Origin: a virus
Reading direction: 5' to 3' (one strand)
Virus record (IMG/VR): IMGVR_UViG_3300051212_000975
Span: 1-49,919 of that record
Length of the DNA stretch: 49,919 nt
The position numbers and the translations under genes were made by a program. The notes beneath the pieces are model-generated. The model ran no database searches. It saw only the letters and a program-made list of their open reading frames with translations, and was not told the origin of the DNA. Numbering within the stretch: position 1 is the first letter of the stretch; each line of letters begins with the position of its first letter. Below, one piece after another: positions 10,498-11,992 of this stretch.

Positions 10498-11328
10498 ATG
10501 TCAATAGAAAACAACCCGTTAAAACAGTATTTCCGTAGACCAAGCATTTATTTGAAACTCCCAAGCAAGGGAGTAGATTATACCCCAGATATCATTTCGA
10601 TCCCTGACAACGGAGAAATACCAATTTATCCAATGACTGCTATTGATGAAATTACTAGCAAAACCCCTGATAGTTTGTATAATGGAACTGCTGTAGCTGA
10701 TATTATCAGAAGTTGTGTCCCTGCAATACGTGACCCATGGAAAATCAGTAGTACTGACTTAGATGCAATTCTTGTTGCTATTCGTATCGCTACTAACGGA
10801 AATGACATGGATATTGAGACACATTGCCCAAAATGTGATGAAGATTTCAAATATGGTATTAACCTATCTTTTATCCTTAACAACTTTGTAGCAGGAGATT
10901 ATAGCAATCCAATAACTATGGGCGACTTACAAGTTAAGTTTAGGCCATTAAATTATAAAGAATTGACAGAAAATGCGATAAGACAGTTTGAAATACAAAA
11001 AGCATTAACCATGATTACCAATATGGAGGATACTCCTGAACGTGATAAAAAATCAAGTGACCTGTACAAAACCATAGCGTTAAGTACTTTAGATATTATT
11101 GCAAGTACAATAGCATCCATATCAAGCACTGAGTTTACAGTAACCGAAAAGGCGTATATTTTAGATTTCCTACAAAATGCAGACAAAAGAGTTGTTGAGA
11201 AGATCAAAGAGAAAAGCCTTAGCCTTAGAGAAACTACACAGATGAAACCATTACAAGTTAAATGTTCTGGCTGTAGTCATGAGTATGATCAAATGTTTAC
11301 ATTAAACGTTAGTGATTTTTTCGTCTAA
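10498..11328 (+). CDS. 26: gp26-type tail assembly chaperone / baseplate hub subunit (zero-frame product)
   Basis: A 276-residue member of the T4 base-plate gp26 family. Recognisable parts are FRRPSIYLKLPSKG at the N-terminus, GEIPIYPMTAIDEITSKTPD (39-58), NGTAVADIIRSCVPAI, and two distant CxxC pairs, C110/C113 and C256/C259, which probably bind one zinc ion. In T4 gp26 is counted among hub assembly proteins. Position next to the tape-measure genes and the frameshift at its 3' end suggest it is the G-like tail assembly chaperone. The ribosome site TGGAG precedes the ATG. The last sense codons (gat ttt ttc gtc taa) contain a -1 slippery heptamer. Confidence 0.85.
   Translation: MSIENNPLKQYFRRPSIYLKLPSKGVDYTPDIISIPDNGEIPIYPMTAIDEITSKTPDSLYNGTAVADIIRSCVPAIRDPWKISSTDLDAILVAIRIATNGNDMDIETHCPKCDEDFKYGINLSFILNNFVAGDYSNPITMGDLQVKFRPLNYKELTENAIRQFEIQKALTMITNMEDTPERDKKSSDLYKTIALSTLDIIASTIASISSTEFTVTEKAYILDFLQNADKRVVEKIKEKSLSLRETTQMKPLQVKCSGCSHEYDQMFTLNVSDFFV
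11316..11322 (+). promoter_or_regulatory. -1 ribosomal frameshift slippery heptamer T TTT TTC
   Basis: In the zero frame the codons are gaT TTT TTC, the X XXY YYZ form required for simultaneous slippage of both tRNAs. It lies two codons before the zero-frame stop and is followed after a 7-nt spacer by a strong stem-loop. All three standard elements of programmed -1 frameshifting are present. Confidence 0.85.
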
Positions 11329-11552
11329 GGCTTCTATACCTTGACTCCGAAGGTATTGGGAAGCTGATAGACGGAATGGAAAAGGAGTGTAAAGCTATTA
11401 AGAAAAATGCACAAAGAATAGCCTGGTATATGCGCGGGTCAGTTAGTTATACTGATGTATTAAATATGAGTCCTACAGAAATAGCTTCATTAAATGAAAT
11501 CATTGAAGAAAATCTAGAAACAACAAAAAAAACAAACATTCCATTCTTTTAA
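11322..11552 (+). CDS. gp51/T-like extension of the gp26-type protein, made by -1 frameshift
   Basis: After slippage at 11316-11322 translation continues for 76 codons in the -1 frame to TAA at 11550-11552, giving a 351-residue fusion with the preceding gene. The extension reads ...YLDSEGIGKLIDGMEKE, then a basic helix, then IAWYMRGSVSYTDVL, SPTEIASLNEIIEENLE and the end TKKTNIPFF. The WYMRG...SP-x-E...IIEENLE-x-TKKT-x-x-PFF pattern looks like the C-terminal domain of tail assembly chaperones that bind the tape measure (lambda GT is the model). There is no well-placed ribosome site for independent initiation, although ATG at 11376 could give a 58-residue protein. The ratio of short to long product would be set by slippage efficiency. 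Confidence 0.85.
   Translation, partial: RLRLLYLDSEGIGKLIDGMEKECKAIKKNAQRIAWYMRGSVSYTDVLNMSPTEIASLNEIIEENLETTKKTNIPFF
11330..11364 (+). promoter_or_regulatory. Frameshift-stimulating stem-loop
   Basis: GCTTC (11330-11334) pairs with GAAGC (11360-11364) and ATACCTT (11336-11342) with AAGGTAT (11350-11356). A 1/3 internal loop and a 7-nt hairpin loop separate them. It starts 7 nt after the slippery heptamer, within the 5-9 nt usual for -1 frameshifting. Confidence 0.8.
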
Positions 11553-11570: not shown

Positions 11571-11639
11571 AATTCCTTCGTTATTCACTCACTTCGTTCG
11601 TTCATATACTCGGAATTATTTTGTTTTAGGAAGTATATT

Positions 11640-11975
11640 GCCGATTAGAAGCCATGGTAGTGCTATTCAGCACTACCAATGGTAAAGGTACTTGCCATGA
11701 CCGTCATCCATGTTGTCTGTTCCCCACATAACTAGCCCTTTCGCTGCTATGTGCCACCGGTTGCTCTGTAAGGTTTATTGGGACTGTAGTGAGATTATTC
11801 ATCTCAGCAACGCATGTTACATAGTCGCAAGACAAAGTTAACTATGTACTCATTCAGGGTTCGCTCCACACGATTGCCCTGTCGGTGTTCCCTAGAATCA
11901 CTTCTAGGCATACTCCAGATCCGTCGGCACAGCACTACCTGTACGTTCTCAAGGAGGACCGACAACTCGGTCGTC
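11640..11975 (-). ncRNA. Candidate structured RNA of unknown class
   Basis: This 340-nt stretch has no protein frame and is visibly richer in G and C than its surroundings. It holds seven hairpins. In plus coordinates these are 11957-11972 (6 bp), 11891-11908 (7 bp), 11855-11881 (5-bp end stem), 11819-11847 (7 bp), 11790-11806 (6 bp), 11725-11753 (6 bp) and 11652-11682 (13 bp with one bulge). Read on the minus strand the loops are purine-rich (GTGA, GAAT, GAATA, GTTG, plus an internal GCGAAAG), and GTGA is a GNRA loop, which favours that orientation. It also follows the gp55-gp46 operon in the same direction. Short minus-strand strings resemble group I intron core elements. No tRNA, tmRNA or RNase P signature is seen. 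Confidence 0.6.
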
Positions 11976-11992
11976 TAATTGTTTAAAACTGT

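Follow-up and report, generated by a model that had tools for sequence, protein, structure and literature searches.

The window analysed here is the whole 49,919-base virus record IMGVR_UViG_3300051212_000975, which is assigned to a T4-like myophage by its portal gp20 match. The features of the locus are listed in Table 1. The gp26-type gene ends with the sequence GAT TTT TTC GTC TAA. Within this sequence, the heptamer T TTT TTC is phased for tandem −1 slippage, as an earlier note on this DNA had described, and it lies two codons before the gp26 stop. The −1 frame entered at the heptamer starts with the codon CGT at 11322 and closes with the TAA codon at 11550–11552. The lengths given in that note for the −1 frame (76 codons) and for the two products (276 and 351 residues) all hold. 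The same applies to the 7-nt spacer between the heptamer and the GCTTC stem, which shortens to 6 nt if the closing G.U pair is counted. The stem does consist of two parts, as had been claimed, but with 7 + 7 bp, including G.U pairs, it is slightly longer than the 5 + 7 bp that had been proposed.

Table 1. Features of the gp26-type locus and of the compared loci. Unless a locus is named, positions refer to the window.
Feature	Position	Strand	Characteristics
Tape-measure-like gene, 851 aa	5723–8278	−	Tandem paralogue
Tape-measure-like gene, 717 aa	8282–10435	−	Tandem paralogue
gp26-type gene, zero-frame product of 276 aa (short form, TAC-N-like)	10498–11328	+	PF12322 T4_baseplate, E 3.8e-18; phrog_150, E 8.5e-20; T4 gp26 profile, E 3.7e-12
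Slippery heptamer T TTT TTC	11316–11322	+	In phase; no synonymous variation; 66/68 homologous and 80/80 cyanophage-type loci
Zero-frame stop TAA	11326–11328	+	Second codon past the slip site; shifts by 1–11 codons among relatives, heptamer fixed
Stimulatory two-part stem-loop	11329–11365	+	Outer part 11329–11335/11359–11365; inner part 11336–11342/11350–11356; folding and covariation
−1 frame extension, 76 codons and stop TAA (gp51 C-terminal domain, TAC-C-like)	11322–11552	+	pN/pS 0.28–0.39; homology to the T4 gp51 C-terminus; predicted helical, pLDDT 87
Predicted frameshift fusion product, 351 aa (long form, TAC-NC-like)	10498–11552	+	Deduced from the component features; alignment with the cyanophage fusion, E 5.8e-16, 277 columns
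Candidate structured RNA, ~370 nt	about 11612–11989; core 11754–11886	−	
Unannotated gap, RaK2/GAP32-type phages	L004 4037–4874; L006 4043–4848; L062 4043–4847; L063 4043–4830		

The two tape-measure-like genes form a tandem pair on the minus strand, and their products are 26% identical over 433 columns (E 5e-26). The longer product contains a VanY/endolysin-like peptidase stretch at residues 631–723. Several named relatives possess a single gene of ~700–1000 aa at the place of this pair.

A protein search among named phages retrieved 62 relatives with identities of 26–40%, nearly all of them jumbo-type myophages, and a scan of IMG/VR yielded 50 further loci. The earlier note had proposed that homologous gp26 genes be searched for a conserved slippery site and −1 extension. 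Both are kept in 66 of the 68 homologous loci that are readable through the stop codon, and the heptamer is present in all 80 loci of a separately collected cyanophage-type set. The two exceptions among the 68 loci are XacN1, which carries T TTT TTT instead, and L070, whose extension is unconvincing and not homologous. Altogether, the same arrangement is found in about 145 contigs and isolates. Since 66 of 68 homologous loci retain both elements, the combination of heptamer and extension is beyond chance. In 52 distinct gp26 sequences, a set that was chosen for carrying the motif and is therefore to be read beside the unselected 66 of 68 loci, the two phenylalanine codons are TTT TTC without exception, and the base preceding them is always T, though the residue encoded there is variable. 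In this motif-selected set, third-base identity stays below 97% in every other codon column, and all other conserved gp26 residues in these 52 genes are encoded by 2–7 codons each. The zero-frame stop changes its identity as well as its position among the relatives (Table 1), whereas the heptamer is immobile.

The 50-nt stretch 11323–11372 has a minimum free energy of −21.0 kcal/mol (z = −4.45), and none of 200 shuffled sequences folds as well. Covariation in the stem was assessed in a gap-free alignment of 29 distinct sites. In these sequences, 83% of the cells are paired in the structure of the window, compared with 36–55% when the partners are slid, and 24 cells show double changes, compared with 9.1 in shuffles. 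The compensatory pairs include a change from G-C to A-U (columns 15–49) and changes from C-G to U-A (columns 19–45 and 24–38). The outer part of the stem is general within the lineage and the inner part is variable. The stretch tested in phage BF gave no good fold, and sharing of the stem by more distant relatives was not seen. These observations show that an RNA structure, presumably stimulatory, is present downstream of the slip site. Such a structure is usual, though not universal, for frameshifted tail assembly chaperones.

The slip site contains a run of six T residues, at which a fusion mRNA could also be generated by transcriptional slippage rather than by ribosomal frameshifting. Transcriptional realignment is known at longer homopolymer runs, and six residues are short for such an event. 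Furthermore, the register of the run is in every case exactly that required for a tandem tRNA slip, a C invariably closes it, and the covarying stem located 6–7 nt downstream fits a paused ribosome. Transcriptional slippage is thus extremely unlikely to be the source of the fusion.

Selection on the extension was examined by computing pN/pS for 32 distinct sequences. In the first 12 codons past the slip site the ratio is 0.37 in the −1 frame and 0.94 and 1.65 in the other frames. Further on, the −1 frame keeps the low ratios given in Table 1, compared with about 0.9 to 2.4 in the other frames. Purifying selection acts on the −1 frame, beginning right at the slip site. In the relatives, the extension is 57–81 codons long. 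The possibility that the arrangement is a coincidence or a sequencing artefact, with gp26 simply ending at its stop and the downstream frame being untranslated, has a probability close to nil: the arrangement recurs across all the contigs and isolates counted above, and pN/pS lies well below 1 in the −1 frame only. As a general explanation, coincidence is refuted by the conservation.

It is also conceivable that gp26 terminates at its stop and that the C-terminal domain is made alone as the product of a separate gene, through reinitiation or translational coupling near the stop. The extension is annotated as an open reading frame of its own in several named records (121Q gp595, Phosso 319, S-SSM7 gp51), an overlapping ATGA occurs where the stop is TGA, and many cyanophage-type extensions contain an ATG at codon 4. 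The starts are nevertheless not conserved. There is no start codon before codon 12 in 31 of the 53 distinct extensions, the extensions of PA5oct-like phages contain no ATG, GTG or TTG at all, and an SD-like site ahead of any start in the first 40 codons is found in only 4 of the 53. Residues R1, L4 and L5 of the extension are invariant, and in most loci they precede any possible start codon; the residues ahead of the starts are thus the most conserved ones, and they are under selection. An invariant heptamer would moreover be without reason if the domain was initiated independently. The pattern named in the earlier note as refuting frameshifting, namely separate genes with ribosome sites of their own and without a slippery site, is not what these homologous loci display. 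Given that the starts are scattered, or missing in the PA5oct-like phages, and that few SD-like sites occur, independent initiation is not the conserved way of expressing the extension, and two separate genes are a very unlikely explanation. Such initiation may contribute additionally in the cyanophages and at loci whose stop is overlapped by an ATG.

Taken together, the invariant heptamer, the covarying stem, the selection on the −1 frame from the slip site onward and the lack of a conserved start or ribosome site support programmed −1 frameshifting. We consider it very likely that frameshifting on T TTT TTC yields a gp26–51 fusion and thereby a short and a long tail-assembly chaperone. In the proposed mechanism, the majority of ribosomes would read gp26 to its stop and produce the short protein. 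In a minority of ribosomes, the P- and A-site tRNAs on TTT TTC would slip back by one base, aided by the stem-loop 6–7 nt downstream. Judging from the conserved anatomy, the slipped ribosomes would translate 76 more codons and release the 351-aa fusion. By analogy with lambda gpG/gpGT and in line with the published assignment for T4-like phages, the short form is the probable coat of the tape-measure protein, to which tail-tube or hub subunits are probably delivered by the C-terminal domain of the less abundant long form. In T4, the corresponding long form is the product of a gene of its own, gene 51.

The zero-frame product belongs to the T4 gp26 family. It matches PF12322 above the gathering score, the baseplate hub family phrog_150 and, in the hhalign comparison, T4 gp26 (Table 1). 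Profile comparison of residues 1–206 of T4 gp51 with T4 gp26 gave an E value of 2.9e-28, so that gp51 consists of a gp26-like domain followed by a C-terminal tail. Comparison of the extension with T4 gp51 had been suggested in the earlier note. A direct match at the right place of the gp51 C-terminus was obtained by hhalign, with a modest score (E 2.2e-4 at a probability of 21%; the lowest E value among 60 column-shuffled controls was 0.012). The entire fusion of this lineage matched T4 gp51 only weakly at best, and a bridge through the cyanophages was therefore built. E values of 3.1e-9 and 5.4e-17 were obtained for the cyanophage −1 extension against the T4 gp51 C-terminus and for the complete cyanophage fusion against full-length T4 gp51, respectively. 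The cyanophage sequences in turn align with those of this lineage, both as fusions (Table 1) and as extensions alone (E 2.8e-5, against 0.012 for the best of 60 shuffled controls). These profiles show homology between the extension and the T4 gp51 C-terminus, which is clearest by way of the cyanophage extensions. The extension alone had no significant match in Pfam and PHROGs, and a nucleotide search with the locus against named phages gave no match.

The structural model of gp26 has a pLDDT of 87. Comparison of the gp26 profile and model with the PDB at the levels of sequence and fold gave chance-level matches only; the similarity of the model to the HK97 chaperone 2ob9, which has the TAC-N fold, is not significant (Foldseek E 5.0, probability 0.06). 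Among predicted viral structures, those matching gp26 are T4-like hub proteins. The extension model is helical (Table 1), and its best matches in BFVD (E 3e-3) are small uncharacterised phage proteins of 60–73 aa. Its fold resemblance to the tape measure chaperone of phage Moogle is weak (E 0.80, probability 0.80).

By analogy, gp26 appears to be the short and the gp26–51 fusion the long form of a tail-assembly chaperone. This reading is suggested by the lambda-like layout, the neighbouring tape-measure-like genes, the published assignment and the annotation of Acinetobacter phage Konradin, whose depositors labelled gp26 and gp51 as tape measure protein assembly chaperones. The classification of T4 gp26, which has long been regarded as a hub component (PMC3004832), counts against it. 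The arrangement of the genes does so as well: as the earlier note had stated, the two tape-measure-like genes directly adjoin the gp26-type gene, but they are divergent from it rather than downstream in one operon, and their identity comes from a weak match to phrog_28420 (E 2.5e-4). The claim that gp26 and gp51 are the tape-measure chaperone pair of T4-like phages is thus supported in outline by the gp51-like extension and the frameshift, with the function deduced from analogy, while T4 itself uses two separate genes.

The locus resembles lambda gpG/gpGT in the −1 slip close to the 3′ terminus of a probable tail chaperone gene, in the predicted minor long form with an extra C-terminal domain and in the adjoining tape-measure-like genes. 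It differs in the divergent gene order and in the insignificant fold similarity to the related HK97 chaperone. The heptamer of lambda G/GT is also different from T TTT TTC. In T4, gp26 corresponds to the zero-frame product, and the tail that follows the gp26-like domain of gp51 to the extension. Genes 26 and 51 of T4 are, in contrast, separate and divergent on opposite strands, and gene 26 reads GAG TTC TTT GAG and thus has no slip site. The layout at the 3′ end of the gene recurs in the cyanophages (Kyanoviridae, e.g. S-SSM7), in which GAT TTT TTC is followed by one codon and the stop, and in which the annotated 'gp51' comprises the −1 extension only. Their extension is shorter (about 60–66 aa) and often has an in-frame ATG at codon 4. 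The TAC locus of Vandenendeviridae and Andersonviridae (Adele, Moogle; PMC12846349) likewise has a conserved −1 frameshift, which takes place on a poly-T motif shortly before TAC-N ends; there, the motif is GTTTTT, and the fold resemblance of the present extension to the Moogle chaperone is weak.

The earlier note had suggested that a frameshift in gp26 might be undescribed in this lineage. It has already been reported for T4-like phages by Vladimirov, Gautam & Davidson (Virology 2022), as cited in PMC10885494 and PMC12846349. According to the citing passage of the PRFect paper (PMC10885494), some T4-like phages carry the short gene alongside a long gene of the fusion type that stands on its own. 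In the Adele paper (PMC12846349), the same study is cited for TAC-N plus a frameshifted TAC-NC with poly-T slip sites in T4-like phages. As far as these citing passages convey, that arrangement is the one seen here; the present analysis documents the covarying stem-loop in this lineage. The phenomenon is known, and the lineage of the window is a new example of it. The abstract of the original study reportedly names genes 26 and 51 and states that frameshifting is retained in several T4-like groups. The short gene and the separate long fusion-type gene are presumably these two. A literature search on slippery-site frameshifting in baseplate hub genes found only TP901-1.

Many differently annotated jumbo phages are probably further members. 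The −1 extension is deposited as a separate hypothetical gene in 121Q (L004) and Phosso (L003) and as 'gp51' in the cyanophage S-SSM7 (L082), and it is left unannotated in the PA5oct-like genomes (L005, L067, L068). Many deposited genomes of jumbo phages and cyanophages thus mis-split or miss the extension, which matters for proteomics. Frameshifting is widespread among the gp26/gp51 relatives, whereas T4 uses two genes. The results lend independent support to the view that gp26 and gp51, long listed as parts or chaperones of the T4 hub with unclear roles, are tape-measure chaperones. The conserved heptamer and the covarying stem open the mechanism to direct tests in cultivated relatives, for example 121Q, RaK2 or S-SSM7.

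A candidate structured RNA is located behind the gene on the opposite strand (Table 1), between a PDDEXK/RusA-like gene upstream on its own strand and the convergent gp26/−1 reading frame. It was also found in L011–L051 and L168–L247. The RNA region is more conserved than the gp26 gene: L027 shows 95% identity in the RNA region and 72% in the gp26 DNA, and L040 shows 79.5% identity over 386 nt of the RNA region with a gp26 protein identity of 47%. The minus-strand consensus fold comprises 64 pairs, 37 of them with compensatory changes, and has an energy of −62.9 kcal/mol, compared with −51.0 kcal/mol for the plus strand. The RNA had no match in Rfam 15 up to an E value of 1, and three blastn queries failed to recover it from named phages. 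Its covariance model did not find it in nine jumbo genomes, where a single chance-level match was obtained (SCTP-2, E 0.37). In IMG/VR, the core motif was located in at least 120 stretches of uncultured-phage contigs, and the full junction is present in 73 of the 80 examined. In a scan of the neighbourhoods, which also took in nine loci from bacterial contigs, the −1 extension lies nearby at 74 RNA loci and the PDDEXK/RusA-like nuclease gene at 66; in the listed cases, the former is convergent and the latter lies upstream on the strand of the RNA. The RNA is likely to be a genuine new class. A functional link to the chaperone gene, in which the RNA would be the other half of a conserved tail-to-tail module and act on or together with that gene, for example through convergent transcription, is unlikely.

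L058 has a weak and divergent match to the RNA at the corresponding location (E 0.0024). The core motif was also encountered in nine contigs of a bacterial genome collection (L288–L296), mostly MAGs, which may be phage contigs or chance matches. In RaK2/GAP32-type jumbo phages, an unannotated gap of ~800 nt, to which the RNA model of this lineage gave no match, separates the extension from the endonuclease VII gene (Table 1).
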